From positions 1,488,001-1,552,000 of the forward strand of contig NC_005125.1 of the NCBI RefSeq assembly GCF_000011385.1: a DNA stretch of 64,000 nucleotides, given 5' to 3'. Source of the stretch: Gloeobacter violaceus PCC 7421 (lineage in GTDB: Bacteria; Cyanobacteriota; Cyanobacteriia; Gloeobacterales; Gloeobacteraceae). Under the pieces are notes generated by a model. It saw only the letters and a list, made by a program, of their open reading frames with translations, made no database searches and was not told where the DNA came from. Made by a program: the position numbers and the translations under genes. Shown here piece after piece: positions 17,437 to 33,083 of the stretch; position 1 is the stretch's first letter; each line of letters starts with the position of its first letter.

Positions 17437-18804
17437 TTAGGCGGCGTACTTCAAAAGAATAAACGTTATATTGTCGTGCCCCAGTTCCTGGAGAGCCAAA
17501 TCGATCAACTGCCGCGCCCCGGCGGCGAGATCGCCGGTGAGCATGGGTAGGAGCACCGTCTGCCAGCAGCGCTCGACAAGCGACCCGTCGCACAGCCCAT
17601 CGCTGCACAGCAGCACCAGACAGTCTTCAGGCAGCACAAAGGTCTGGACTGTGGGCTGCAAAGCCTCCATGGCGATCACCCCGAGCGCCTGGGTGAGATG
17701 GCCGCTGCCGTCCATGCGCAGCACAGCACTGCTGGTGGTGCGCGCCAGACTCACCTCCTGGTTGGCCACGTCGTCATCGACGGTGAGCTGCTGGCAGTGG
17801 TGCCGGTCGATGAGGTAGATGCGGCTGTCGCCGACGTGGGCAATGTGCAGCAGGCTGCCCGTCAGGCAGTAGGCGACGACGGTCGTACCCATCTGGTGCC
17901 GGCGCTGGCGTCCCTGGCGGCGGTTGGTCTCCAAGAGCAACTGGTTGGCGCGGTAGAGGGCCAACGCCATGCCCCGGCGCACCTGCAAAGGCGGCAGGGG
18001 CTGGGTCTGACGGCTGAGTTGCTGCAGTTCGCGATCGAGCAGATCCAGAGCCAGGCGGCTTGCCACCGCGCCGCCTTCGTGCCCGCCCATGCCGTCGCAG
18101 ACGATGCCGTAGGTGCCGGGCGGATCGTGGATGAAGCAGTCCTCGTTGGCCTTGCGGCTGCCCGGGTGGGTCGCACCCAGCACGCCCGCCGGACCGCGGC
18201 CAGGGTTGGCGGCGGCGAGATTTTCGAGGGCGGCGGACAGCTCCTCGACGCGGGCGATTCGGCCCAGGCAGAGTGCCCCGACGATTGCGGCGAGCGGCGG
18301 GCTGAGGGGGATCAGGCTCTGCCAGCTTTGCCCCAAGGCCGCGAGCGGCGGCGGCGCCGGGTCGCCGCTCAAATAAAACAGGCAAGCCTGCCAGCCGAGT
18401 ACGCCGATGTTGTCGGGGGCAAGCAGCGAAGAGGCTACCCCCTCCTGCACACAGGGTTCCCAGAGGCGGGCCAGTTGAACCAGCCAGCCAATCTGCTGCA
18501 ACGGTGGGGCGGCGGGCCAGCCCTGGCGCAATGTCGGCCAGGGGGTGCCGTCGGCTGCGAGCGGCCCGCGCGCCAACAGCACGCACGGTTCGCCGCCATT
18601 TGGGGCCGCCATGCAGGTGTGAATCTCGGGGATCGCCCAGCGAAAGTGGTGCAGCCTCTGGTAAGGGCGGCAACCGGCAGGCAGGCCCGCGGGGGCGGCG
18701 GTGGGCTGGTCCGGCAGCAGATCCCGGGCGATTGCCGGGGACTGGCCGACCACCCGGTAGCGCCGGTCGAGGGCCTGGCGATTGCCGGTGACCAGATAGT
18801 GCAT
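17437..18804 (-). CDS. PP2C-family serine/threonine phosphatase with extra N-terminal domain
   Basis: A 455-residue protein. The C-terminal half (from about residue 205) is a PP2C/PPM metal-dependent phosphatase with the usual aspartate motifs: [45 protein letters not shown] and HDNITFILL. The N-terminal 200 residues are Trp/Pro/Leu-rich without a membrane segment and resemble the poorly defined N-terminal half of other cyanobacterial PP2C proteins. It lies 7 nt after the FHA gene at the end of the injection-system operon. FHA plus PP2C is the pairing used for phospho-control of type VI secretion; a similar control of the apparatus encoded upstream is inference. Confidence 0.92.
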
Positions 18805-18811
18805 GGGCGGT

Positions 18812-19567
18812 TTACTCTTCGATTTCGAAGCGGAAGCTCATCTTGTTGGCTTTGCCGAGGGCGATGGTGTCGCCCGCTTTGAGCTTACGGCGAAAGCGCG
18901 TTCCCGGTTTGATCAGTTCGCCGTTCAAGAAGGTGCCGTTGCTGCTGCCGGCGTCCTCGAGGGCAAAATTTCCTTCGCTGCTGTGGATGGCGGCGTGGAC
19001 GCGCGAGACCACTTCTGCGCCGGGCAGGTGGGAGACGTCGATATCGGGCGGTAGATCTTCGTTGGGTTTGCCGAGGTAGACCAGGGGCTGATCCGCCGGC
19101 AGTTCGAGCCGCTCGTCGCTGCCGATATGGACGAGGACGGCGGTGGCAATCTGCAGGCGCGTGCCGGGCGAGGCGAAGGGCGGCGGCGCACCGGCGTTGG
19201 GGCGCGGAGGCGGGCTTTCCATGGGGCGGGCAACCTGGGGTAGAGGTGGATCGACAGGGGCCGGGTCGGCCCGGCGGGCGGAACGCCGCTCGGGGGGCAC
19301 GACAGGGGCGGATGCGGGGGGGGCCTCAGGAGCAGGCGATGGGGCAAGGACCGATGCAACGACTGGCGAAGCGGCAATAGCCACCGGCTGCGGTGGGGCG
19401 GAAACGACGTGGGGCAACTCGACGCCGCATTCGCCGCAATACTGGCAGGGTGTCGGGTTGATGCTGCCGCATTCAAGACACAGTACGGCGATCTCCCCCT
19501 GGCAGCGCCGGCAGTTCAGGGCGGTGTCGGGGTTGGCGTGCTGGCACTGGGAGCAGACGATAGCCAT
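18812..19567 (-). CDS. Zinc-ribbon and FHA domain protein
   Basis: A 251-residue cytoplasmic protein. Residues 1-50 carry four CxxC-type knuckles (CSQCQHA, CRRCQG, CLECGS, CQYCGECG), a double zinc ribbon. A Pro/Ala-rich linker follows to about residue 150. The C-terminal 100 residues are a forkhead-associated domain with the phosphothreonine-binding residues VSRVHAAI and EDAGSSNGTFLNGE. It lies between the membrane protein gene (5-nt gap) and the PP2C gene (7-nt gap). Likely a phospho-dependent scaffold for the system encoded in the same operon; partner unknown. Confidence 0.92.
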   Translation of the reverse strand: MAIVCSQCQHANPDTALNCRRCQGEIAVLCLECGSINPTPCQYCGECGVELPHVVSAPPQPVAIAASPVVASVLAPSPAPEAPPASAPVVPPERRSARRADPAPVDPPLPQVARPMESPPPRPNAGAPPPFASPGTRLQIATAVLVHIGSDERLELPADQPLVYLGKPNEDLPPDIDVSHLPGAEVVSRVHAAIHSSEGNFALEDAGSSNGTFLNGELIKPGTRFRRKLKAGDTIALGKANKMSFRFEIEE

Positions 19568-19572
19568 GGCGG

Positions 19573-21564
19573 TTAGGGAGCGGGAGCGGTGGGTTCGGGG
19601 GCGGTTTTAAGGGCCGGGGCGGCGGGTTTGCCGGGATTTTTGGGAGCGTCCTTGCCGGGGGGCGGTGGCGGCGGGGTCGGGTCGAAGGTCTCGATGACGA
19701 AGCCGCGGCGCACCTCACCCGCTTTGTTGGCCGCTTTGAGGGTGATTGGGATCTGCCGGCCCGCGCGCGTAAAAGGCGGCAAACTCAGCGATCCGTTGGG
19801 GCCGAAGGTACCGTAGGTCTCCAGTTCGACACTCACATCCTTGCCGGTGACCTGCCAGGAGAGCACCACCTTGTCGCCGGGATTGGTATCGGTCTTAATC
19901 TTAAGAGGAACATTGGCCGGGGCGGCGGTGCCGTTGAGGGTAAATTTGCCGATCACCGGCTTGGAGAGCGTTTCCGGCTTCGGTTTGGGCTTGGGGACGA
20001 TCTCGATGAGATCGCTCTGGGTGGTGACCGCCGGGGCGTCGCGGTGGCGCTGGAGTACCTTCATCTCGAAGACATAGTAGCCGCCTTTGCGGGCGTCGGT
20101 CTTGACGTTTCGGCAGGCGAGCAGGTCCTCGGTGATCTGGCATTTGCCCTTGAGGGCGGCGGGCAGGTCGGCCACCTCTTTGAGCTGATCGCCGAAGGTC
20201 AGTTCCATCGGTTTGCTGACCGGCTGGCCGTTGCCCGCGCGGGCATTGACGGTGATCTTGCGGATCTGACCGGGGTTGCGCAGTTGCCAGTTGAGGGTGA
20301 TCCGGTCGCCGTTGGTCTCCAGGTAGCGGATGCTGTCGGACTGGAAGCTCTCGACGCGCACGGGGTCGGGAGCGCGAAAGTACACCAGCCAGACTAGATA
20401 GAATATCCCCCCCAGCGCCGCGAGCACCAGCAAAGCGGCCAGCAGCAGCTGCCACCAGGGCCGGGCCAGCCATTCGAGCTTGGCCTTGGGCGGTGTCTTG
20501 GGCAGCGGCAGCGCCTTGGCGTCGGTAAGATCGATCTTGAAGGGAATCTCGAAGGGTTCGCCCCAGAAGGGCCGCTGCCACCAGTTCTTGGGTTTGATCG
20601 TGAGATCGATGCCGACACTTCTACCCGGCAGGAGGCGCACCTCCTCGGGTCTGCACTCGTAGGCGGCGTACTCGTCCTCCTCGCTGCTGCTGGCCCCGAC
20701 CCCCAGTTCGCGGATGACGTTGCCTTCGTTGGCGATGTTCACCTTGAAGCGCCCCGGCTTGCGGGTGACTTTGCCGAGTAGCGTCTCGATTTCGACTTTG
20801 AGTCCGTAGGTGGTCGGAATTTGCAGATATACCAGATCGAGGAGCACCAGGTCTGGGGTGTTGGCGGAATAGACCCGCAAAGTCGGCGAATAGCTGCCCG
20901 ACAGCGTGTCGGTGGGCGGCTGGAACAGCAGAACAATCTGGCCCCGGGTGTTGGGGTTGAGATCGAGGCCGTCGGGGCAGTCCACCAGGCCCGGGCCGCT
21001 CAGGCTCGGCACCTGGTAGCGCACCGAGTACCAGCTCTCTTCGAGGTCCGGGCAGGTGAGCCTGAAGCGGTCGACCCGGTCGGAGCGGTTGTGCACCTGG
21101 ATCTGGACCACCTGGGGTTTGCCGGGTTGGACCACCAGCGGCTGCTGGGGGGTGGTCTGGGGTTTGAGCGCGAAGGTCGGATCGCTGACGCGCACCGCCT
21201 GCTGGTCGCGCGGCAACAGTTGCAGCTGGCGGGGCCGCTGCAGGGGGGTGTCCTCCGGGTAGTGCTCGGGAGCGTCCACGACGATGGCGTAGTCGTAGAT
21301 GCCCGGAAAAGCCTGCGGCGGGATGGTGAAGCGAAAGGCCACCTCGCTGCTCTGCTTGGGATCGAGGGCGAGGCGCTGGCGCGGCGAATCGCACCACTTG
21401 CGCAAGTCGCGCTCGGAATCGTCGATAAAGACGTCGATCACCGCGCTCTGGTCGCCCTGGTTGCTCACGGTGACAAACAGCTCGACCTGCGAACCCGGCG
21501 TCGCCTGCTGGGGGCCGGGCGGGTTCATGATCAGCACAATCGGGCAGGAGCGAGTCTGGATCAC
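19573..21564 (-). CDS. Ig-like, single-membrane-span protein of the injection-system operon
   Basis: A 663-residue protein without signal peptide. Residues 1-350 contain repeated Ig-like/COG1470-like beta modules (for example PGSQVELFVTVSNQGDQSAV and VVQIQVHNRSDRVDRFRLTC). A single strong membrane helix near residues 375-398 (WWQLLLAALLVLAALGGIFY) follows a basic stretch, suggesting the N-terminal part is cytoplasmic. The C-terminal part has two more beta domains and a Pro-rich tail. Its start overlaps the WD40 gene by 4 nt. The architecture suits a membrane anchor or docking protein for the baseplate, but I know no characterised homologue. Confidence 0.75.
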   Translation of the reverse strand: MIQTRSCPIVLIMNPPGPQQATPGSQVELFVTVSNQGDQSAVIDVFIDDSERDLRKWCDSPRQRLALDPKQSSEVAFRFTIPPQAFPGIYDYAIVVDAPEHYPEDTPLQRPRQLQLLPRDQQAVRVSDPTFALKPQTTPQQPLVVQPGKPQVVQIQVHNRSDRVDRFRLTCPDLEESWYSVRYQVPSLSGPGLVDCPDGLDLNPNTRGQIVLLFQPPTDTLSGSYSPTLRVYSANTPDLVLLDLVYLQIPTTYGLKVEIETLLGKVTRKPGRFKVNIANEGNVIRELGVGASSSEEDEYAAYECRPEEVRLLPGRSVGIDLTIKPKNWWQRPFWGEPFEIPFKIDLTDAKALPLPKTPPKAKLEWLARPWWQLLLAALLVLAALGGIFYLVWLVYFRAPDPVRVESFQSDSIRYLETNGDRITLNWQLRNPGQIRKITVNARAGNGQPVSKPMELTFGDQLKEVADLPAALKGKCQITEDLLACRNVKTDARKGGYYVFEMKVLQRHRDAPAVTTQSDLIEIVPKPKPKPETLSKPVIGKFTLNGTAAPANVPLKIKTDTNPGDKVVLSWQVTGKDVSVELETYGTFGPNGSLSLPPFTRAGRQIPITLKAANKAGEVRRGFVIETFDPTPPPPPPGKDAPKNPGKPAAPALKTAPEPTAPAP

Positions 21565-23801
21565 GGCAGGGGCACCCGTCGCATCGACACTTGAAAATCG
21601 TCGCCGCCGCTTACACCGATGATCCCCTCGCGGTCGCGGCCGAGGTCAACGGCGTTCACCTTTTTGGGGCGCTCCTCCAGCAAGCGGCCGGTGACGGAGC
21701 GCGCCGCGCGCGTGCCTTTGGGGGTGAGCTGCCAGAGCATCACCCGGTGATCGTCCCCGCCGCTAATCAGCGACAGGCCGTCGCCGCCGAAGGCGAGCGA
21801 GCGGACCGCGAAACTGCCGTGGCCCAACCAGCGATCCAGCACCGGGCAGGTGACATCGACGGGCACGTTCGCAGGCACCGTTTCGGCGCTCTGGACGGGG
21901 ACGGCCCGGTCCTGCGCCTTCGGGTCCGCTTTGACCAGGGAGCCGAGGGCGGTCGCCCCGCTAAACGGCGCCTTTGCGGCGTTCGGGTCGGCGCAGCGGG
22001 CGAGGTCGTAGGTGGTGATGTTGCCTTGGGAATCGGCGGTGGCGAGCAAATTCGGGTTTTTGGGCGAGAGGGCGACGCTCCAGATGACGTCGTTCTGGCC
22101 GCCGCGCGGCTGCAATCGGCGCGGTCTGGCGTCGGGTTTATCCAGATCCCAGAGCAACAGCCTGAAAAACCGGCCGGCGCTAATCAGCGTGCGCTCGTCG
22201 CCGCTCAGTTCGAGCGCCTGCACGGTGTAATCGAGTTTTTTATCCAGTTCGAGGACGCGCACCGGCTGGGTGGCCTCCGATTGCAGGTCCCACATCTGCA
22301 CCATGCCGCTGCCGTGGGCGCTAAATAGATGGCGCGAGTTGGCGGTGAAGACAAGGTCGAAGACCCGGTCGTCCACCTCCGGCTGGTAGTCGAGCTGGCG
22401 CAGCTTCTCGCCGGTGGCGACGTTCCAGATTTGCACCGCTCCGTTTTCGAGCCCGGCGGCCAGCTGGCTGTTGTTCTTGGGCATAAAGCGCAGCGCGCGC
22501 ACGGGCCGGCCGGTATCGACCAGAATGCCCTCGTAGCTGAGATCGCCGCCTTCTTTGCCGATGCGCCAGCTGCGGATGGTGCGGTCGTCGCTGGCGCTGT
22601 AGACCATGCGCGCGTCGCCGCTGACGCGCACCGAATTGACCAGGTCGGTGTGGGCGCGGGGATTGAAATGCTCGTGGACCGTGACCGCCCCCCAACTGCC
22701 CGAGATAAACGTGAGTGCAAAGGACAATACCTGCATCCAGACGGGCAACTTCGGCAACACGCGCAGTTCGAGTTTTTGCGAGGGCGGATCGGCACCTCCC
22801 AGCCGCTCGTCGGACAGGACCGCCACCGCCTCCAATTGCAGTGTCTTGGGTAGGCCGAACAGCGAGCGCTTGCGGGTGATTTCGAGTTTGAGTTCGGTGG
22901 TGGTGGAGACCCCCAGCACCCCCTGGGGCGGTTCGGTGCGGGCGGTGCACCTGCCGCTGTCGCGGCCTTCGACGGCGACGCTCACCTCCTGGCGCAGGTT
23001 GCTCGCGTTTTTAAACAGCAACGGAAAGGTGGCGGCAAGCTCGCTCCAGTCGGGCCACCAGGCGCCGCCTTTTTCCGGCAGACGTTGCCGCGGTTCGCTG
23101 CAATTGAACTGCACGAAGCCTACCGGCAACACCTCCAGCGACCCTTCCGCGCGCGCGGCGCTCCCGCTCTGGGGGAGCGCTTCGACCGCAAAGGGATACT
23201 CCTGGCCGAGGGCCTGGTTCGGCCCCGGCGGCAGGCACTGAAAGGCGACATCCACCAGGGCGCCCGCTTCGACGACGAAGCGCCGCTCGGTGCCGGTGGC
23301 CATCCAGACCGGGTCGATTCCCAAAAAGCGCAAAACGATATCCACCGGCCGCTGGCTGAGGTTGCGCACCCGCACCGGAATATCCACGGGATTGCGCGGA
23401 TAGGTCTGAAACTGGCGCACCGGCAGGTCGACCAATAGTTGCGACGGTCCCGAACCCGCTTCGACAATCAGCCGCAGCAGGTACTTGCGCTCCTCCTTGA
23501 GCTGCGGGGAGGTGATCAAGATCGTGACGTTGATCGCCCCTACAAAACCGGGAATGGGCGAATCGACGATCGTCACCTGAAACTGGGTGCGGCTGCCGGG
23601 GGGCTTGGCGGTGGAGACTTCCGGAAAGAGCTGGTACCAGTTGGGATTGCGCCCCGTCCCCGCCGCCAGTAACTCCAGTTTGAATCCCGCGAACTGGTTG
23701 CTGTCGTTGCTGACGGTCACCTCAAAAGTGACCGGCGGACCACCGGGGCGGTAGGTGACCGCCTGCTCCGAGAGCACAGCGCTGATGACGCGTTTTTCCA
23801 T
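21561..23801 (-). CDS. Ig-like and WD40-repeat membrane protein of the injection-system operon
   Basis: A 746-residue protein. Residues 1-350 are Ig-like beta modules similar in style to the downstream gene (TFEVTVSNDSNQFAGFKLEL, VDIPVRVRNLSQRPVDIVL). A moderately hydrophobic segment near 360-380 (WMQVLSFALTFISGSWGAV) could span the membrane. Residues 390-746 show about seven WD40 units (SASDDRTIRSW, AGLENGAVQIWN, AHGSGMVQMWD, ATADSQGNITTYD, SGGDDHRVMLWQ), enough for a full propeller. A protein-interaction platform is the safe reading. Its stop overlaps the next gene start, so the two are coupled. Confidence 0.8.
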   Translation of the reverse strand: MEKRVISAVLSEQAVTYRPGGPPVTFEVTVSNDSNQFAGFKLELLAAGTGRNPNWYQLFPEVSTAKPPGSRTQFQVTIVDSPIPGFVGAINVTILITSPQLKEERKYLLRLIVEAGSGPSQLLVDLPVRQFQTYPRNPVDIPVRVRNLSQRPVDIVLRFLGIDPVWMATGTERRFVVEAGALVDVAFQCLPPGPNQALGQEYPFAVEALPQSGSAARAEGSLEVLPVGFVQFNCSEPRQRLPEKGGAWWPDWSELAATFPLLFKNASNLRQEVSVAVEGRDSGRCTARTEPPQGVLGVSTTTELKLEITRKRSLFGLPKTLQLEAVAVLSDERLGGADPPSQKLELRVLPKLPVWMQVLSFALTFISGSWGAVTVHEHFNPRAHTDLVNSVRVSGDARMVYSASDDRTIRSWRIGKEGGDLSYEGILVDTGRPVRALRFMPKNNSQLAAGLENGAVQIWNVATGEKLRQLDYQPEVDDRVFDLVFTANSRHLFSAHGSGMVQMWDLQSEATQPVRVLELDKKLDYTVQALELSGDERTLISAGRFFRLLLWDLDKPDARPRRLQPRGGQNDVIWSVALSPKNPNLLATADSQGNITTYDLARCADPNAAKAPFSGATALGSLVKADPKAQDRAVPVQSAETVPANVPVDVTCPVLDRWLGHGSFAVRSLAFGGDGLSLISGGDDHRVMLWQLTPKGTRAARSVTGRLLEERPKKVNAVDLGRDREGIIGVSGGDDFQVSMRRVPLP

Positions 23802-23847
23802 ACGGGTGCGGGTTGGCTAGGCGGGCCGGGGGTGGCCGCGCGGGTGT

Positions 23848-24432
23848 TCACGCCCTTCTTTCGAAGAAGCTTCGCAAGTTGGTGTACATCTGGCTGAAGG
23901 AGCGGTGGACGCCCTGGGAAACAAAGTTCATGCCGCGCGCCTTGAGCAAATAAATTTCTTGCTCGGCGCGGGTTTGCACAGCGTTGCCCTTGCCGCTGGG
24001 CGGTGCGTTGAGACCGGGGATCTGGGGCAGATTGTTGATGTTCATGCCGAACAACTGTGCTCCCTGGGCGGATTTGTCCAACTGCCGGTTCGGGTTGGGG
24101 GCGGGCATGCCGGGGGGCATCCCCGGGCGCTGGGGAGCAGCGGGCGGGCGCGGGCCGGGGGCACCCGCCGCGGGGCGTTGGGGAGCAGGGGCACCGGGCC
24201 GCTGCGGCGCGGCTCCCTGGGCGGGCGGGGCGCCGGGGCGCTGGGGAGCGGGGGCACCGGGCCGCTGCGGCGGGCGCATACCGGGGCGCAGGGGGGCCGC
24301 TACGCCGGGCACCACCGAACTGGCACCGGACTGGGGACGGGTCAGCCGGGAAAACGCCCCGCCGAACAGGTTCATCCACGTGCTGTAGATGAAACTCTCC
24401 ACGTTCATGAAGTCTTTAAAGAAGTTGGACAT
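23848..24432 (-). CDS. Proline-rich linker protein, unknown function
   Basis: About 194 residues from the ATG at 24432, preceded by GAGGGAG. The first 35 residues look like an amphipathic or membrane-associating segment (FIYSTWMNLFGGAFSRL). Residues about 40-125 are a Pro/Gly/Ala/Gln/Arg repeat built on PQRPGAPA, with a 63-nt internal DNA repeat. The C-terminal 65 residues return to ordinary composition (QTRAEQEIYLLKARGMNFVS). It sits between a baseplate-type gene and the WD40 gene, so it is probably a structural connector of the same apparatus, but I do not recognise it. The open frame extends to 24708 inside the upstream gene; that part is not credible. Confidence 0.65.
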   Translation of the reverse strand: MSNFFKDFMNVESFIYSTWMNLFGGAFSRLTRPQSGASSVVPGVAAPLRPGMRPPQRPGAPAPQRPGAPPAQGAAPQRPGAPAPQRPAAGAPGPRPPAAPQRPGMPPGMPAPNPNRQLDKSAQGAQLFGMNINNLPQIPGLNAPPSGKGNAVQTRAEQEIYLLKARGMNFVSQGVHRSFSQMYTNLRSFFERRA

Positions 24433-24580
24433 CGCTCGCTCCCTCATGCTTGCGGGCTGACTGCTATTACTACTCCGGCCGCCGGGACGATGGATCGCCC
24501 TGCCCCCTTGCTGTGGGGCGGTCGGTCCGGGGTAGGGGCTCCTAGGGACAACTCCCGGCAGGCCATAGCGCCGTCTTCTT

Positions 24581-25792
24581 TCAGGTGCCGCCCATCCAGG
24601 CTGTGTCCTTGCCCTGCAGGGCAAACAGCTGCCGCCGGCGCCAGGCGTAGGCCAGGATATTGATGCCCAGTTCGTGGGCGGTGCGGATGGCCAGGCGCGA
24701 GAGGGCAAAGTTGTCGTCGATGCCCCAGGCGGCGGCCAGTTCGCCGATCGTCAGCACGATGCCGCCGCCGGTGAGCAGCCGCAAAGGTTGCTGGTTGATC
24801 GCGGGCAGCGCCGAGAACAAGAACGGGTGGGTGCGCAGCGGGTGATCCCGGCGCAGGCGCTCAAGGTACTCCAGGGGGGTCTCCAGTTGCTGGGCGAGGG
24901 CGAGCACGCTCTCGACCAGGGGAGCGGCGTCGGCAGGGGCGTCCACCATCAGTACCCCGCCGCGGTCGAGGTAGCCTTTGAGCGCTTCGAATTCGCGGCT
25001 GTTGAGCACCAGCGGCTGGCGGCCGGTCAGGTACAGCAGGTCATGGGCTTCCAGGCCCTCCGCTTCATCGAAGCTCACCTGGCCCACCTCGCCCACCCCC
25101 TGCAGGGCCGGGTAGAGCGCGCCGGTGGCCCGGAGCAAGTGGGGCAGGTTGAAGAAGTGGCGGGTGCCGTCGGGGTCGGGGTGGTTGACCACCGCCATGC
25201 TGATCAGTGCCTGGGGGCGCGGCTGCGCCTGCAGCCGGAAGCGCAGGTCGACGTTGCTGTAGCCCGGAAAGAAGACTTCGCGCGGGTTCTCGAGCTGCAC
25301 GGTCCCAGGCTGCAGCAGCACCCGGCAGACTTCGACTTCCAGTTCTTCGGGGGGGCTGCTTTTTTCATCGACACGGAACGTCTCCTGGACAATGTCGCGG
25401 CGCTCCTCGCGGCGCAAGTCGTCGGGATCGACGTACTTGACCACCAGATAGACCATCGCGGGCTCGTTGTCGGCAAGTTCGACGGCGACGCGAAAGTCGA
25501 TGGGCTGGGGGACGACGATCGGATTACCCACCAGGTCGATAGCGATCCCCGGCTGAATGCGCACCCAGCGCCCGTCGCGATATTCGGCCTTGACCTCGCT
25601 CGGGGCGGGGATCGCCTGCACCCCCAGGCCGCAGACGATCCCCGGCTGGTTGAGCGCCTGGTAGTGCATGCCCTGGCGCAGCCGGTGGTACTCGTGGGCG
25701 CGCCGCCAGCGCTCGGCGTTGATGAGCAGACCGTCGGCGGCCTGCAGGCGTTCGAAAGGACGGATGGGCGGGGCGGGGAACAGTTGGCTCAT
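24581..25792 (-). CDS. Tail/baseplate-associated protein with DUF4159-like C-terminus
   Basis: A 403-residue protein. The N-terminal 240 residues start PPIRPFERLQAADGLLINAE and contain YQALNQPGIVCGLGV, a pattern seen in cyanobacterial tail-like baseplate clusters. Residues about 240-395 resemble DUF4159, a glutamine-amidotransferase-like fold: LNSREFEALKGYLDRGGVLM, then HPLRTHPFLFSALPAI, then a C-terminal TAHELGINILAYAWRRRQ. No signal peptide. It lies 6 nt after the tail protein gene. A wedge or tail-fibre-proximal part is plausible; this is inferred from context. Confidence 0.72.
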   Translation of the reverse strand: MSQLFPAPPIRPFERLQAADGLLINAERWRRAHEYHRLRQGMHYQALNQPGIVCGLGVQAIPAPSEVKAEYRDGRWVRIQPGIAIDLVGNPIVVPQPIDFRVAVELADNEPAMVYLVVKYVDPDDLRREERRDIVQETFRVDEKSSPPEELEVEVCRVLLQPGTVQLENPREVFFPGYSNVDLRFRLQAQPRPQALISMAVVNHPDPDGTRHFFNLPHLLRATGALYPALQGVGEVGQVSFDEAEGLEAHDLLYLTGRQPLVLNSREFEALKGYLDRGGVLMVDAPADAAPLVESVLALAQQLETPLEYLERLRRDHPLRTHPFLFSALPAINQQPLRLLTGGGIVLTIGELAAAWGIDDNFALSRLAIRTAHELGINILAYAWRRRQLFALQGKDTAWMGGT

Positions 25793-25798
25793 GGGTCT

Positions 25799-27061
25799 TT
25801 ATGGCGAAGAGGATTCGAGTGGCGCAGACGGGGGTTCGGGGCGTTTCGGGTCGGGTTGGCCCGGAGCGGGCGGCTTGGGGGGCAGGGGCTTCGGGGTGCC
25901 CTGGGCGGATTTGGGAGGCGGCGCACCGGGGCGGCCGTTGGGGGTAGCAGGAGCCGGACGGCGGCTCGGAGCGGGAGGCGACGGGGCGGCCTGGCCGGCC
26001 TGGCCCGGCGGGGTGGCCGGGGGTGGGGGTGGGCTTTCGATGTAGAGGTCGTAAGTGCAAAAAGCGGGGCGCTCCTGCTCGATGATCAGCCGCACCAGCC
26101 GCTCGTCGATCTGCCCGGGGCGCTCCTCGCGCAGGCGCACCACAAAGTGAAACGGCCGCCCGCCCCCCAGCACCGTGCCCTGGCCGAGGCGTTCGCCCCC
26201 CAGCACAAAGCCGCGCCCGAAGTGGTCGGTGATCGCGATGTGCTTGGCTGCTTCCTCGGGAAGCTGGTCGTCGAGGGGCAGCCCCGTGTACAGGTGCAGG
26301 TAGAGCCTGAGGCCCTTGCGGGTGCCGCGCCAGCGGTAAATTTCGACCGCCCGCTTGATGAGGCGGCGCTGCTGCGGCAGTTCCCAGCGCGCGTCCATCG
26401 GCCAGGACACCCAGTAGGCCAGAAAAGGCAATAGCGCCCTGGGGGCAGTCAGCGGGTCGAGGTTGGCCCACATGCCCTCCAGCCCATGGAAAGCGGGCTC
26501 GAAGGTCTCCTCAAAAATTTTGAGAAACCGGCCGATAAAGTCGACTTCGCGGTAGAGGGCCGGCAGGTAGTTGAGATAAAGACTGTGGGCACGCACATGG
26601 ACGCTGAACTCCTCCAATTCGACCTGGTCGAGTTCGAGGGCGTTGATGCCGTAGAAAAAATAGATGCGGCCCTGAAAATCGAGGTCGAGGTGGCGCTTCT
26701 TTTTGGGGGTGAGCGCTTTTTGATCTTCAAAATAGGACGCAGGCACCTGGAAGTAGATGACTGCCTCCATCTGATGACCGGGGGCGATCTGGTTGCCCTC
26801 CATGCCGATGCGGTACCAGTCGACCGGAAAGTCGCCCTCGACGCGCAAATTGAGCCAGATGGGGCGCTTGCCCAGGTTTTTGATCTGCACCACCATCTCG
26901 CTGGGTTCACCCGGATGGAGCAACAGACCGTTGCTGCGGGCGCTCACCGCCACACTTTCATCGGGGCCGTTGACCATCAGCCCGGCCAGGGGCACCGCCT
27001 CGGGCACCCGCATCGGGGTGATCTGGACGGTCAGGAGTTTGCGGTCGTGGGCCTGGGTCAC
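25799..27061 (-). CDS. Phage tail protein (TIGR02242-like) of a contractile injection system
   Basis: About 420 residues from GTG 27061, which has AGGAGG 6 nt upstream; the longer frame to 27082 overlaps the previous gene. An N-terminal Ig-like module (residues about 20-165, GEPSEMVVQIKNLGKRPIWL) is fused to a domain matching the phage-tail family TIGR02242. Its hallmarks are SLYLNYLPALYREVDFIGRF, EGMWANLDPLTAPRALLPFL and the closing YRWRGTRKGLRLYLHLYTG. The family occurs beside baseplate-J genes in contractile injection systems. The last 90 residues are a Pro/Ala-rich tail. The Ig-like extension echoes the two membrane proteins further down the operon. Confidence 0.85.
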   Translation of the reverse strand: MTQAHDRKLLTVQITPMRVPEAVPLAGLMVNGPDESVAVSARSNGLLLHPGEPSEMVVQIKNLGKRPIWLNLRVEGDFPVDWYRIGMEGNQIAPGHQMEAVIYFQVPASYFEDQKALTPKKKRHLDLDFQGRIYFFYGINALELDQVELEEFSVHVRAHSLYLNYLPALYREVDFIGRFLKIFEETFEPAFHGLEGMWANLDPLTAPRALLPFLAYWVSWPMDARWELPQQRRLIKRAVEIYRWRGTRKGLRLYLHLYTGLPLDDQLPEEAAKHIAITDHFGRGFVLGGERLGQGTVLGGGRPFHFVVRLREERPGQIDERLVRLIIEQERPAFCTYDLYIESPPPPPATPPGQAGQAAPSPPAPSRRPAPATPNGRPGAPPPKSAQGTPKPLPPKPPAPGQPDPKRPEPPSAPLESSSP

Positions 27062-27071
27062 CGTGCGCCTC

Positions 27072-29267
27072 CTAGCGGGCAATCAGGTTGATGACGTGGC
27101 TGGAGCGCAGGCGGTTGTCGGCCCACGAACAGATGAGCCCCAGGGGACCAGGATCGACCACCGGGTCGGGGGCGGGTTTGCGCGTCCAGTTCGGGCCGCG
27201 CTTGCGCACCGAAAAGAGCAGCACCGCCCCCAGATAGCGCACCCCCGCCGTTTGCTGCAACAGCGCCACGATATCCGAGGGGTAGACCGGCCTCCCGAAG
27301 GGCCAGCCTTTGCTGTCCGGACCGCCGGTGACCGGGTTGAGAAACCGGTAGAGCGCCACGCGCAGGTTGAACAAAATTTCCTGCTGGGCGCGGGGGTTGT
27401 TGTACTCGGGCTCCAGGGCCACTTCGGTCTGCACCGCCACCCCGACGTACTCGGGTTCGGCCAGTTGCACCTGCACCCCCATCAGCCGCCGCTGCTCCAA
27501 ATAGCCCAGAATCTGCTGCTGCAGCTGGGGCCTGAGGGTGAAGCGATCGGGGTTGAGGCCCTCCCCGCGCCCGACCGCATCCACGTTCGCCTGGGGAACG
27601 ACCATCAGCCGCACGGTACCCGCCGCCCCCTCGGGGGTGGGCAGGCACTTGACCCGGGCTACCGCCCCACCCGCTCCGCGCTCGGTGAGAATCTCAAAGT
27701 CCTCGGCGGTCACCGCCCGGTCGCGGGTGCGCAGCATCTGCGGGGCGCGCAGCACGGCCTGATCGAGCGATTCGGCGTCCGCACCGTTGCGGGCGGGCTG
27801 GTGGTTGGTCACCCGGGCGATGTAGGGAACGGCCGATTTGAGCACTTTGAGCGTCCCTGCCTGGACGTTGCCCGTCCGGCCGCCCCCCACCCGGTAGGCC
27901 ACCATGCGGATCACCGAGCCGCGGGGGGGGATGGCGCCGTACTGCCGCTCTTCCTGGGCGTTCGCCTCGGCGACGGCGGCCAGTTGCGGGGTGAGCCCCT
28001 GCTGCTGGATGCGCGAACGGATGGCGGTCTGGTGTTGGAGCTGGGCCGGTTCGCGGATGAGCGGCCCGAACTGCACCGTGCCGGTGAGCGAATCGACGGT
28101 GTAGTGCAGATCCTCCGGGCCGGAGTCGGCAAAGTCGGCCACTTCCTTCCAGATCTGCGGCAGGCCGCTCGGAGGGGAGACGAGAACGTGTTCGGCGGCG
28201 CTGCGCGCCAGCACCGGCGAACCTTGCAGTTGAAATTTCTGACCCGGGGTGCCGTCGCTCATGCCGAGGCGCTCCTCGCGCACCGTCGTGCTGTTGCTCG
28301 CCCCGACGGTGCCGCCGATCGAACGCACGGCAAGGCCGACGATGCGCGGCGAAGCGCTGTAGGCGGGCTGGTTGGGGGCGGCGGGCAGGCAGATGCAGCG
28401 CAGCCAGCGGCCCTGATAGCTGGTGAAGCGCGCCGGGGGCCAGCGCTGCGGCAGGTGCAAAATCACATCGACGCCCTGCAGCGGGTTTTTGCCCTGCTGG
28501 GCCATTTCGCTAAAACTAAATCCGCGCGTAGCGTCGTCGACCTCGCGCAACAGCACCGGCTGCCAGCGCTGGCCGTCCCAGGCTTCCCAGCGACGCGGGG
28601 GCAGGTTGGGGTTGATGCCGGTGGGAGTAGCGGCGGCTCCCTTGAGGGTGATGGCGAGCACGTTGCCGTCGAGGGGCTGTTCCGGGTCGACCACCAGATA
28701 AAAACAATTGCCCGCCTGGGGCTGCTCGTCGAATATCGGCTGCTCGCTGCCGCCCCACTGGCCGCCCGGCTGGCGGGTCCAGAGGTCCGTGACCCGGTCG
28801 CGCAGCGCCTGGGGGGTTTCGTCGGTGGTCTGGGCGGTCAAAAAGTGCAGCAGACTGGGCTTACCCACCAACAGCGGCCGGTCGGTGCTGAAGACGATCG
28901 CCTCCTGGGTCTGGGTGCGCTCGGTGGCCACCTCGGTGCCGGCCGGTACCCGGTAGACATCCGGCAGGGCGTTGGTCAGATAAAACGTCACGTCCGTTCC
29001 CGCCGGGGCCGGGGGCTGCAGACGGATGCCAAGCAGTTCCAGAAACGCCACGTAGTTGCGGCGGGGCACCTGGTTGAAGCGCAGCAGCATCTGGTCGGTC
29101 AGCCAGGCGAACAGCTCAATGAGCGTGATGCCCGGGTCGCTCAGGTTGTAGTCGGTCCACTCCGGGCAGTAGCGGGGGATGCGCAGCAGACACTCGGCCA
29201 CCAGATCGTCGAAGGTGCGATCGTCGAGGTCGGACTTGGGCAACTTGGGCAAAAAATCGAATTCCAC
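27072..29267 (-). CDS. Baseplate-J-like wedge protein (putative baseplate assembly protein)
   Basis: A 731-residue protein matching the large putative baseplate assembly family (TIGR02243-like, related to phage gpJ/T4 gp6). The N-terminus has the family pattern YCPEWTDYNLSDPGITLIEL followed by FAWLTDQMLLRFNQVP. The central part is variable. Near residues 460-560 it has the GGGRTGNVQAGTL and RAPQMLRTRDRAVTAEDFE region typical of J proteins. The C-terminus closes with YPSDIVALLQQTAGVRYLGA. It forms the wedge ring of the baseplate in this family. It follows the gp25-like gene by 4 nt. Confidence 0.9.
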   Translation of the reverse strand: MEFDFLPKLPKSDLDDRTFDDLVAECLLRIPRYCPEWTDYNLSDPGITLIELFAWLTDQMLLRFNQVPRRNYVAFLELLGIRLQPPAPAGTDVTFYLTNALPDVYRVPAGTEVATERTQTQEAIVFSTDRPLLVGKPSLLHFLTAQTTDETPQALRDRVTDLWTRQPGGQWGGSEQPIFDEQPQAGNCFYLVVDPEQPLDGNVLAITLKGAAATPTGINPNLPPRRWEAWDGQRWQPVLLREVDDATRGFSFSEMAQQGKNPLQGVDVILHLPQRWPPARFTSYQGRWLRCICLPAAPNQPAYSASPRIVGLAVRSIGGTVGASNSTTVREERLGMSDGTPGQKFQLQGSPVLARSAAEHVLVSPPSGLPQIWKEVADFADSGPEDLHYTVDSLTGTVQFGPLIREPAQLQHQTAIRSRIQQQGLTPQLAAVAEANAQEERQYGAIPPRGSVIRMVAYRVGGGRTGNVQAGTLKVLKSAVPYIARVTNHQPARNGADAESLDQAVLRAPQMLRTRDRAVTAEDFEILTERGAGGAVARVKCLPTPEGAAGTVRLMVVPQANVDAVGRGEGLNPDRFTLRPQLQQQILGYLEQRRLMGVQVQLAEPEYVGVAVQTEVALEPEYNNPRAQQEILFNLRVALYRFLNPVTGGPDSKGWPFGRPVYPSDIVALLQQTAGVRYLGAVLLFSVRKRGPNWTRKPAPDPVVDPGPLGLICSWADNRLRSSHVINLIAR

Positions 29268-29271
29268 AGGC

Positions 29272-29703
29272 CTACTCCGCCGCTGCTTGCGGATTCAAAT
29301 AAAAGGGGTACACCAGGCTGCGCGGGTCGGGACTGCCCTTGAGGCGATAGTCGATGACTATATCAATACGCCCGGCCACCGGATCGGGATCGGCGCGCAC
29401 CTCGGTGAGATCAATGCGCGGCTCCCAAATTTCGAGCGCCTCGCGCACATAGGAGCGGATGCGCAACAGGGTCGAGGTGTTGAGGGGCGCAAAGGCCAGA
29501 TCCGCAAGGCGCGAGCCGAAGTTCGGGCGGTAGACCCGCTCGCCGATGCCCGTGCGCAGGATAATCCAGATGGCCTCCTCGACATCCTGGGCGGCGGAAC
29601 TGAGCTGGATACCACCCTGCAGATTGAGCCTGAGCGGAAAGGCGAGACCCGTCCCCAGATATGCCCGCTGCCTGTCGTTCAACGCTTCTTCCATCGCCGC
29701 CAC
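29272..29703 (-). CDS. GPW/gp25-family baseplate protein
   Basis: About 143 residues of the T4 gp25/GPW family, the baseplate component that nucleates the sheath in contractile systems. It shows LAFPLRLNLQGGIQLSSAAQ, WIILRTGIGERVYRPNFGSR and the conserved EPRIDLTEVRADPD near the C-terminus. The start is set at GTG 29703, with GGAGGG 6 nt upstream; an open frame reaches 29763 but lacks support. It is the first recognisable gene of the leftward injection-system operon. Confidence 0.9.
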   Translation of the reverse strand: MAAMEEALNDRQRAYLGTGLAFPLRLNLQGGIQLSSAAQDVEEAIWIILRTGIGERVYRPNFGSRLADLAFAPLNTSTLLRIRSYVREALEIWEPRIDLTEVRADPDPVAGRIDIVIDYRLKGSPDPRSLVYPFYLNPQAAAE

Positions 29704-29808
29704 GGCACACCCTCCAGACCCCGTCAGACTAGCTATGGCTAGGGGTGAGCAACCATTCGCCAAAGGTCGAGGGCGCTTTGCCTGATGAACGGTTAGGGAA
29801 GCGGCGTC

Positions 29809-29954: not shown

Positions 29955-30755
29955 TCAGCACGGCTTTCTTGGAGTCTGGCTGGAAAGTTCGCCATTGTCC
30001 GGGTCGATCCCCAGTTGGCGCAACCGCTCGGCCAGACGCTCGGCGCGTTGCTCGGCCGATTGTGCCCGCAAACTCTCTTGCTCGGCACGTTGCTCGGCCG
30101 ATTGTGCCCGCAAACTCTCCTGCTCGGCACGTTGCTCGGCCGATTGTGCCCGCAAACTCTCCTGCGCCGCGCGCTGCTTTTCTTGCGCTGCCCGGGCGGC
30201 AATTTCCACGTAGCTCTCGAAGGGCGTGCCGTCCGGCCGCCACAACTGCAGATCTCCTTGCGGCGTGATTCCGAAGCGCGTGCCCAGCCGTGGGCTCACC
30301 CAGCCTTCCATCCGCTCGATACCCACCAACGCTCCTTCTTCGCGCACAAACCCATCCAATGTCCCTTCGTCCGGGTCATAAAGGTAATACTCTTCGACGC
30401 CGTGGCGATGGTAGAACTGGAATTTGCGGGTCATCTCCGAAATGGTATTGCCGGGCGAAAGGACCTCGAAGACCACCTGGGGTGGAATGTTGTCCTCTTC
30501 CCACTGGCGGTAGCTGCCCCGGTCCCCTTTAGGGCGGCCGAAGGCGACCATCGCGTCGGGAGCCTGGCGGATCTTATTGTCTCCCTCGACCGGGTACCAC
30601 AGCAGATCGCCTGCGACAAAGACGTTCGGATCGTCCGCGAACAGCCACTCCAAGCCTTCTTTGATGTAGACGATCCAGCGAAACTGCCGGGTGTTGTCGG
30701 ACATGGGCTTGCCGTCCGATTCCGGATAGATCACTGCTTGAGTGTAAAGGACCAA
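29955..30755 (-). CDS. Uma2-family (DUF820) putative endonuclease with coiled-coil tail
   Basis: About 266 residues. The core has the Uma2 PD-(D/E)xK fold pattern: YPESDGKPMSDNTRQFRWIV, DLLWYPVEG, RQAPDAMVAFGRPKGDRGSY with the motif Asp, and PQVVFEVLSPGNT with the motif Glu, then the HGVEEYYLYDPDEG region. The last 90 residues are a charged coiled coil built from repeats of ESLRAQSAEQRAEQ. No clear start is present: TTG 30755 is chosen, the frame continues to TTG 30827, and an ATG at 30703 lies too far in. Uma2 genes are strongly amplified in cyanobacteria; their biological role is unknown. Confidence 0.82.
   Translation of the reverse strand: MVLYTQAVIYPESDGKPMSDNTRQFRWIVYIKEGLEWLFADDPNVFVAGDLLWYPVEGDNKIRQAPDAMVAFGRPKGDRGSYRQWEEDNIPPQVVFEVLSPGNTISEMTRKFQFYHRHGVEEYYLYDPDEGTLDGFVREEGALVGIERMEGWVSPRLGTRFGITPQGDLQLWRPDGTPFESYVEIAARAAQEKQRAAQESLRAQSAEQRAEQESLRAQSAEQRAEQESLRAQSAEQRAERLAERLRQLGIDPDNGELSSQTPRKPC
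30046..30163. repeat. 42-bp tandem repeat in the Uma2 coiled-coil region
   Basis: Two full and one partial copy of a 42-bp unit start at 30046, 30088 and 30130, nearly identical at DNA level. The unit is 14 codons, so copy-number change would keep the frame and alter coiled-coil length. Confidence 0.9.
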
Positions 30756-31051
30756 TGGGTAAGTTTGAGCCGTTGCCTGCCATAGTAATCCACCCACTGC
30801 GGCGCCCGCGACTGAGTGCCTCTCCAAATGCCGTGGTTTTGTCAGGTTCGACTACAGGCTTTCAGCCGTTACACACTCACCCGCTCACACAGCCTCAAAA
30901 TGGTCAAAGTACGATGATGAAGGTCACTCTGCGCCCCGGCTTTGCTTGAGACGCTTCGCTCAAGTATGGATTATTGAAGAAATTTTCTCGGGTTCGGCGA
31001 TGGAAGACGAACTGAACCATACATTTTCCGGTTGCGAAGACTGTTAGTCCG

Positions 31052-32025: not shown

Positions 32026-32106
32026 GGATAGCCCCCAAAGACTTGTTGAATTTCAAAACCCGGGTATTCAAGCGGTTGGGCTTCGACAGACCCGACAGGC
32101 ACACTC

Positions 32107-32186
32107 AAAAAAGCGAGCGCTCGCTCACTATTATTTCGCCCAAGCGGCCGGTTCGTCAACTGCACAACGGAGCGCTCGCTTTTTTT
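32107..32186. repeat. 16-bp inverted repeat, possible operator pair or miniature element
   Basis: Two perfect 16-bp inverted arms (32107-32122 and 32170-32185) enclose 47 bases. Each contains the self-complementary core GAGCGCTC, part of a 12-bp palindrome GCGAGCGCTCGC in the left arm. The A/T runs lie on the outside. It sits between the divergent Coq4 and TetR genes, so it could bind the TetR protein twice or be a small mobile palindrome. Confidence 0.6.
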
Positions 32187-32306
32187 GACAGCCCTACGTG
32201 TGCCCTGCGCGGGCTCTGGGATAATGAACAGGCTTCGACGTACCGGACTGGGCACCAGCCGGCCGGCCGATCGCTGAACACACCTCCCCCTGCTGCCCTC
32301 CGGGTC

Positions 32307-32900
32307 ATGCCGAAAGTCGATCCAAAGTTCAAGGAGCTTCGCCGCGAGCAAATCCTGCAGGCGGCCGTCACCTGTTTCGCCCGCAAGGGTTTCCACGCCG
32401 CGACCACCGACGACATCTGTGCTGAGGCCCGGTTGAGCCCTGGGAGCATCTACCGGTACTTCCACAACAAAGAAGCGATCATGCTTGCGATCGCCCAGTC
32501 CCACCAGCAGGTGGTCGTCGGTTGGATGCAGGAGGCGGCGCAGCGCACCGATGTCATCGAAGCGTTGGCGATGTTCGCGGCCCGGTTTGTGGGCGAACTC
32601 GACGCCCCCAACGCCCGCATCGCCCTGGAGATTGTGGTGGAGGCCGGACGCAACCCGACGCTGGCCGCCCAGGTCAGCCGCTACGACGAGGAGGTGAACG
32701 ACGGCATCGTCGATTTGTTGCTCAGCGGCAAGCAACGGGGCCAGATCGCCGCGGATATTGACTTTGTGGCGACGGCTTTTCTGTTGCGTGCCGCCATCGA
32801 AGGTCTGGGAATCGCGATGACCCTCGAGCGGCGCGTCGAACCCGAAGCAGCCCTTGCCGAGTTCCGGGGGTGGCTGGTGCGTCTTTTCGGCCCGCCCTAG
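32307..32900 (+). CDS. TetR/AcrR-family transcriptional regulator
   Basis: A 197-residue repressor-type protein from ATG 32307. The N-terminal helix-turn-helix (residues about 15-60) reads ILQAAVTCFARKGFHAATTD then ICAEARLSPGSIYRYFHNKE, the standard TetR pattern. The C-terminal ligand-binding domain is all-helical and resembles the AcrR type. The frame is open from 32043 but the extra part crosses the inverted repeat and is not protein-like. It precedes the ADOP permease, whose promoter carries a matching palindrome, so that gene is its likely target. Confidence 0.9.
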   Translation: MPKVDPKFKELRREQILQAAVTCFARKGFHAATTDDICAEARLSPGSIYRYFHNKEAIMLAIAQSHQQVVVGWMQEAAQRTDVIEALAMFAARFVGELDAPNARIALEIVVEAGRNPTLAAQVSRYDEEVNDGIVDLLLSGKQRGQIAADIDFVATAFLLRAAIEGLGIAMTLERRVEPEAALAEFRGWLVRLFGPP

Positions 32901-32976: not shown

Positions 32977-33083
32977 TCAATGTTGTGCTTAGGCGACTCT
33001 CGCCCTGGCTGCGGGCCACAGGCGGGGGCTTGCAGCCAGGCCGACCGGCAGCCTGCCGCAACGCCCCTCGACAGAAACTGACG

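Follow-up and report, generated by a model that had tools for sequence, protein, structure and literature searches.

A contractile injection system at three loci of the Gloeobacter violaceus genome and its candidate membrane-docking and signalling module

The 64,000-nucleotide stretch of the Gloeobacter violaceus PCC 7421 genome analysed here (NC_005125.1, positions 1,488,001 to 1,552,000; hereafter the window) harbours a tightly packed minus-strand operon (window positions 17437-29763), which encodes the baseplate proteins gp25, J and I, a DUF4159 protein, a Pro-rich protein, two immunoglobulin (Ig)-like proteins, an FHA protein and a PP2C phosphatase (Table 1). With slightly better than even confidence, we read this operon as the baseplate, the receptor-binding-like adaptor and the membrane/signalling module of a single contractile injection system (CIS), which is encoded at three loci, is complete but for its AAA+ ATPase, and would be docked and gated by the accompanying membrane and signalling proteins. 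Most likely, the CIS is docked on the cytoplasmic membrane or recruited there. The link between non-released CISs and membranes is an open question, and the thylakoid-anchored CIS (tCIS) of Anabaena, the Streptomyces coelicolor CIS (CIS_Sc) with CisA and the haloarchaeal CISs resembling type VI secretion systems (T6SSs) each differ in this respect. The lineage described here adds a further candidate docking set, which is conserved over many cyanobacteria.

The genome is a single contig of 4,659,019 bases, which was searched family by family and stretch by stretch, and its CIS genes lie at three loci at about 0.45, 1.51 and 4.30 Mb. An earlier, sequence-only reading of the window had listed gp25, J, TIGR02242, DUF4159, Pro-rich, Ig-like, FHA and PP2C genes in tight leftward order, and Pfam/NCBIfam profiles confirmed this set; for the Pro-rich protein itself (23848-24708), whose gene overlaps the 3' end of the DUF4159 gene, Pfam and NCBIfam searches returned no match. 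Both of the “large Ig-like proteins” are Ig-like, but one of them (21561-23801) ends in a WD40 propeller. The assignment of the baseplate set to a contractile injection system is borne out by the profiles and by the parts found elsewhere: the sheath (PF04984/PF17482), four gp19 tube proteins and the VgrG spike (PF04717 and PF05954) lie outside the window, as that reading had supposed, and all are present in the genome. Its “split or reduced” locus is thus split, yet not reduced, since sheath, tubes, cap and spike are all retained.

Table 1. Components of the Gloeobacter violaceus contractile injection system and associated genes (window positions, unless given in Mb of the genome; TM, transmembrane segment)
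Feature	Position	Strand	Evidence
gp25-like baseplate wedge / sheath initiator (Cis9 type)	29272..29763	-	PF04965 E 6.5e-23; syntenic in relatives
Baseplate J protein (Cis11 type)	27072..29267	-	TIGR02243 906 bits (cut-off 156)
Baseplate I protein (Cis12 type)	25799..27082	-	TIGR02242 176 bits (cut-off 52); weak CIS12_fam E 1.4e-16
Cis13-like putative adaptor with C-terminal DUF4159	24581..25792	-	PF13709 E 1.3e-14; N-terminus CIS13_fam E 1.1e-10 (weak match)
Pro-rich low-complexity protein	23848..24708	-	Homologue at equivalent site in same-genus genomes
Single-pass membrane protein, Ig/NEW3-like N-half and WD40 propeller C-half, 746 aa (Ig-WD40)	21561..23801	-	WD40 PF00400 E 1.3e-21; TM near residues 348-366
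Single-pass membrane protein, Ig-like domains on both sides of TM (Ig-TM)	19573..21564	-	AlphaFold2 pLDDT 81; TM near residues 366-396
Double zinc ribbon, Pro-rich linker and FHA (phosphothreonine reader)	18812..19567	-	FHA E 5.9e-14; DZR E 1.4e-7
PP2C-type Ser/Thr phosphatase	17437..18804	-	PP2C_2 E 1.7e-12; Stp1-like; metal-binding motifs intact by eye
DUF4255/Pvc16 cap, sheath, three gp19 tube proteins, two TAC-like tail-assembly proteins, Hanks-type kinase	4.297-4.304 Mb
VgrG, Cis7-type CIS_tube protein, 3,279-codon frame, fourth gp19, zinc-ribbon FHA, pseudokinase-TM-PBP, second FHA with TM	0.444-0.464 Mb

The system has a sheath, tube, VgrG spike/hub, ordered gp25-J-I genes, a Cis7-type protein and a DUF4255 cap, as expected of the extracellular CIS (eCIS) superfamily; it departs from the superfamily in the missing CIS-type AAA+ ATPase and in the lack of a single gene cluster, which is usual though not strictly defining. 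A cyanobacterial CIS AAA+ query gave a best match of 54 bits in this genome (orthologues elsewhere score 640-860 bits), and the matches were rejected as a CIS ATPase, since they are confined to the AAA domain. This ATPase is said to be always present in phage-like-protein translocation structures (PLTS) (PMC4122934). By eye, no PAAR gene was seen beside VgrG, at this locus only and without a genome-wide PAAR search. The true start of gp25 may lie some codons further downstream. Between the VgrG/Cis7 genes and the fourth tube gene runs a low-complexity Pro/Glu/Ala-rich open frame of 3,279 codons (C1:448968-458804, i.e., L006:13968 to L008:3804, minus strand). Nostoc and Streptomyces encode unassigned proteins of 1,000-1,300 aa at the matching place, and hence the length varies greatly; the product is possibly a tape-measure-related protein or an effector.

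The three loci are already in the literature. Table 1 of a PLTS survey (Sarris et al. 2014, PMC4122934) lists G. violaceus PCC 7421 at glr4099-4106, gll0425-0430 (printed gll-425-0430) and gll1410-1413, and judging from gene counts, strands and spacing, these ranges correspond to the three loci found here. The survey lists the loci only; docking is not discussed, FHA is not mentioned in its text, and the last range ends before the five genes downstream of gll1410, which encode the Pro-rich protein, the two Ig membrane proteins, the FHA protein and the PP2C phosphatase. Provisionally, three things appear undescribed in the open-access literature searched: the conserved membrane/signalling genes, the placement of the lineage and the fact that the dispersal recurs.

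Scattering of the genes is a trait of the lineage, which recurs in other closed genomes. Of 386 genomes sampled across the phylum, 22 encode a close TIGR02243 protein (>500 bits), and each of these 22 also yielded a sheath match; in 21, the best sheath reaches 60% identity or more, and the remaining one (G344) gave only more distant sheaths. Sheath and J genes are megabases apart in G. violaceus and in four further genomes with closed or long contigs (G358, G247, G346, G261); in two genomes of the same genus and one of the same order, they are separated by hundreds of kilobases or more. VgrG occupies a third site in G247, G346 and the genus Gloeobacter. Elsewhere the distance shrinks to 12-25 kb (G097, G173, G382 and one G131 copy), and a single 20-kb contig of a metagenome-assembled Prochloraceae genome carries sheath, tubes, gp25, I, J, Cis13, both Ig genes, FHA and cap. 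Because these genomes hold the parts close together or on one contig, the scattered parts of the other genomes belong together. Such systems are liable to be overlooked or cut short by surveys that require all genes to be contiguous. G131 itself has two J/VgrG copies (C1:3.44-3.47 Mb and C1:5.81 Mb), one beside its sheath and one not, which suggests that genes may become dispersed through duplication or acquisition.

The genes are maintained by purifying selection. Sheath, J and VgrG are retained in the same-genus genomes and in one same-order genome, where the sheath is 75-99% identical (mostly 60-78% across the class), and the operon gene order is kept in same-genus and same-order genomes; the place of the PP2C gene is conserved in three same-genus genomes. 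The arrangement is thus not a product of chance. Compared with one same-genus genome, the ratio of nonsynonymous to synonymous substitution rates (dN/dS), computed for seven genes and leaving out gp25 and the Pro-rich gene, is 0.10 for J, 0.17 for Cis13 and I, 0.23 for Ig-WD40, 0.24 for Ig-TM, 0.26 for FHA and 0.33 for PP2C.

Sheath and J protein place the system closest to the CIS of Streptomyces, where “closest” refers to solved structures only. The nearest solved chain to J is 9gtp of the S. coelicolor CIS (403 bits), and the sheath scores 421 bits against the same CIS, 317 against the haloarchaeal 9ezm and 187 against the Anabaena tCIS; CIS_Sc (lineage IId; 9GTP, 8BKY) thus holds the nearest solved relatives of both proteins. 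In a J tree built by a quick method, whose rows were chosen from matches to this J and which makes no claim to a wider placement, the cyanobacterial sequences are united with full support, and those of the Gloeobacterales are nested among them. A plasmid-borne Streptomyces CIS has a similar gene order. However, in Streptomyces CisA follows the baseplate genes within one contiguous cluster that includes the AAA+ ATPase, whereas the cyanobacterial lineage features the Cis13/DUF4159 adaptor and Ig membrane proteins, and its loci are often scattered. The CISs of Chloroflexota (Anaerolineae and relatives) likewise use a TIGR02243 J protein and the order LysM7-VgrG-gp25-J-I-Cis13/DUF4159, but form a single cluster where visible, and neither Ig membrane genes nor the pseudokinase-PBP gene were found within 10 kb of their J genes.

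The accessory set that the sequence-only reading had failed to recognise is real and conserved across cyanobacteria. Of 25 cyanobacterial genomes, 17 encode the Ig-WD40 N-half at their CIS loci and 12 the Ig-TM protein, and neither occurs in 400 kb of control DNA, taken mostly from the same genomes. Each protein has one predicted transmembrane segment (TM), after about 350-365 residues, and the two proteins are paralogous along a stretch that includes the TM (hhalign E 3e-16, 339 columns). Protein I carries an N-terminal Ig/NEW3-like module (about residues 50-118), which matches the Ig modules of both membrane proteins (E 1e-6 and 4e-6). An AlphaFold2 model of the Ig-TM protein shows Ig-like beta domains on either side of a long helix, and a fold search of the PDB with the Ig membrane protein returned generic Ig-fold matches only. 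Since a single membrane span is predicted in each of two accessory proteins, an anchor at the cytoplasmic membrane, as proposed for a host without thylakoids, is plausible; the docking itself we infer.

The second element of the presumed docking site is the Cis13/DUF4159 protein. A sequence search of the PDB with this protein returned nothing useful. Structure prediction, which the sequence-only reading had proposed for the accessory proteins, gave an Ig-like fold for the 19573-21564 protein and, in the AlphaFold2 model of the 24581-25792 protein (pLDDT 90), a front domain that may resemble TssK and phage receptor-binding proteins (RBPs). The C-terminal domain of the latter resembles Hoch_4089 (4i66; Z 20.3, root-mean-square deviation (rmsd) 2.4, 181 residues aligned), and residues 55-188 resemble a tail fibre of cyanophage A-1(L) (Z 7.8, rmsd 2.5, 81 aligned). 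With Foldseek, the front domain gave repeated weak matches of low TM-score to TssK (E 3.6e-4) and to phage tail and receptor-binding proteins (E 1e-5 to 1e-3). In T6SSs, the front domain of TssK binds the baseplate, while its head binds the membrane complex (PMC6300606). By analogy with this joint between baseplate and membrane complex, the Cis13/DUF4159 protein is a putative adaptor.

The CIS loci of G. violaceus are also rich in signalling genes. Three of the six FHA domains of the genome are encoded there (p about 1e-5, or 3e-5 if the intervals are set from structural genes, both computed after the pattern had been seen), as are two of its 14 kinases (p about 0.006-0.01). The Hanks-type kinase gene at 4.30 Mb, whose motifs are intact by eye, directly follows the tube/TAC genes, and several Nostocales have genes for an FHA protein and a kinase downstream of theirs. 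More widespread is the pseudokinase-TM-PBP gene, which lies within about 10 kb of CIS genes in nine of 25 genomes; in 14 aligned homologues the PBP domain was matched and the catalytic HRD aspartate replaced without exception. A NarL-type regulator and a histidine kinase diverge upstream of the 4.30 Mb sheath operon, and this pair recurs next to sheath operons in other genomes. GerE regulators and histidine kinases beside eCIS loci are already known (PMC8213781). An association of FHA and kinase proteins with this group of CISs may not be confined to cyanobacteria: on a plasmid of Deinococcus psychrotolerans, a gene flanked by VgrG and tail genes encodes a protein of 1,592 aa with the annotation FHA domain-containing Ser/Thr kinase (L151:15788-20566).

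These parts suggest a mechanism in which particles would assemble in the cytoplasm and the two Ig proteins would serve as the docking site of the baseplate at the cytoplasmic membrane, contacted via the Cis13/DUF4159 adaptor and the Ig module of protein I. The pseudokinase-TM-PBP protein might sense an envelope signal, the kinase, phosphatase and FHA proteins would gate docking or firing by reversible phosphorylation, and the NarL/histidine kinase pair could control expression. Gloeobacter lacks thylakoids; a thylakoid anchor should be impossible there, and membrane docking is therefore cleanly testable in this genus.

Several points weigh against docking and gating as proposed. Assembly, localisation and interaction are predictions from the genes, and no effector gene was identified. 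The topology of both Ig membrane proteins is based on hydropathy, the matches between protein I and these proteins are limited to some 70 residues of a widespread fold, and the adaptor scores low against TssK (TM-scores 0.17-0.25) and below Z 8 against the tail fibre. Outside the genus, the phosphatase was not seen. Beyond Gloeobacterales and some Nostocales, FHA genes are not significantly enriched (nine of 45 CIS regions versus two of 20 control regions, Fisher p 0.48), nor are active kinases (0.56 versus 0.75 per 100 kb in the same regions), and a general FHA/kinase enrichment around the phylum's CIS loci is thus not supported. Because of this lack of enrichment, we restrict phospho-gating to Gloeobacterales and some Nostocales; it is lineage-restricted at best.

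The best-placed alternative, possible though clearly less probable than the docked and gated CIS, is a Streptomyces-like particle that remains unattached in the cytoplasm and, under stress, fires on its own producer, leading to regulated cell death, such that the membrane proteins, like CisA, act at firing only. The proximity of sheath and J to CIS_Sc speaks for it, as does the finding that CIS_Sc requires a bitopic membrane protein, CisA, which is not part of the particle (PMC12237407), and that the relatives in Roseiflexus and Deinococcota form particles free in the cytoplasm (PMC12998442). The pseudokinase-TM-PBP protein parallels CisA in having a cytoplasmic part, a TM and an external ligand-binding-like domain, a resemblance in layout alone to candidates read by eye. 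Read by eye, candidate CisA proteins of Streptomyces plasmids comprise zinc ribbons, a TM and a discoidin-like end, and the pseudokinase-PBP protein was accordingly kept as an analogue of CisA only. By eye, however, no discoidin-like CisA-type protein was seen beside the cyanobacterial loci, and Streptomyces has no Cis13/DUF4159 adaptor at the corresponding place.

Rather doubtful, and slightly behind the free particle, is an independently evolved, T6SS-like weapon of this CIS lineage, permanently anchored in the membrane and firing on contact with neighbours. T6SSs can be controlled by threonine phosphorylation through PpkA, PppA and Fha, and as in those systems, genes for a kinase, a PP2C phosphatase and FHA proteins accompany the structural genes. 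The possibly RBP/TssK-like adaptor and the single-pass membrane proteins fit such a weapon as well. Haloarchaeal CISs of the eCIS group act in a T6SS-like, membrane-anchored manner (PMC11566945), and their 9ezm sheath is among the nearest solved ones. Yet, no CIS-type AAA+ recycling ATPase was found in the genome, no effector/immunity pair was seen, and by sequence the system is not a T6SS: gp25 reaches 17.9 bits on the TssE profile TIGR03357 (cut-off 53.2), J belongs to TIGR02243 and the sheath is of the eCIS type. The sequence does not separate permanent anchoring of the T6SS kind from a Streptomyces-like, stress-induced recruitment that kills the producer.

We put forward only tentatively, as a rather unlikely proposition, that a cytoplasmic, Streptomyces-like CIS lineage evolved its own membrane-docking complex in cyanobacteria, consisting of Ig proteins and a TssK-like DUF4159 adaptor with phospho-gating in Gloeobacter, and so reached a T6SS-like mode independently, with dispersed loci and in cells without thylakoids.

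An Anabaena-type tCIS moved to the plasma membrane is highly improbable: both systems are cyanobacterial, their sheath, tube and baseplate proteins are distant homologues (7B5H), and the adaptor and protein I weakly match CIS13_fam and CIS12_fam, but the sheath is far from All3325, protein I has 427 aa compared to 1,335 aa in All3315, i.e., lacks the Cis12 extension, the Cis13-like protein has no TM by prediction, and several genomes carry the present lineage plus a second, more distant sheath. The thylakoid-anchored kind named by the sequence-only reading was rejected on lineage and on these two missing features. Equally improbable is a decaying, functionless prophage or CIS remnant, which the dispersed genes and missing AAA+ might suggest, but which was rejected given the parts found elsewhere in the genome, the purifying selection, the sheath, J and VgrG genes kept in related genomes, and the lack of any frameshift or missing core gene seen there.

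Some further observations concern other CIS loci and the surroundings of the operon. The Oscillatoria nigro-viridis plasmid pOSC7112.04 (L107) carries CIS baseplate genes together with several genes for DUF4157 and ATP-binding proteins; the plasmid location would be a sign of horizontal spread, and these proteins are candidate effectors. At a Prochloraceae CIS locus, a gene for a calpain-family (C2) cysteine protease, another candidate effector, lies directly 3' of the TAC genes (L065:5138-6253). In the window, a Uma2-like protein encoded on the minus strand (29955-30827) has, by eye, a short tandem repeat (ESLRAQSAEQRAEQ) near its C-terminus. Also by eye, a gene for a TetR-like regulator (32043-32900) adjoins one for a large FtsX/MacB-like permease on the plus strand (32985-35723), which looks duplicated.

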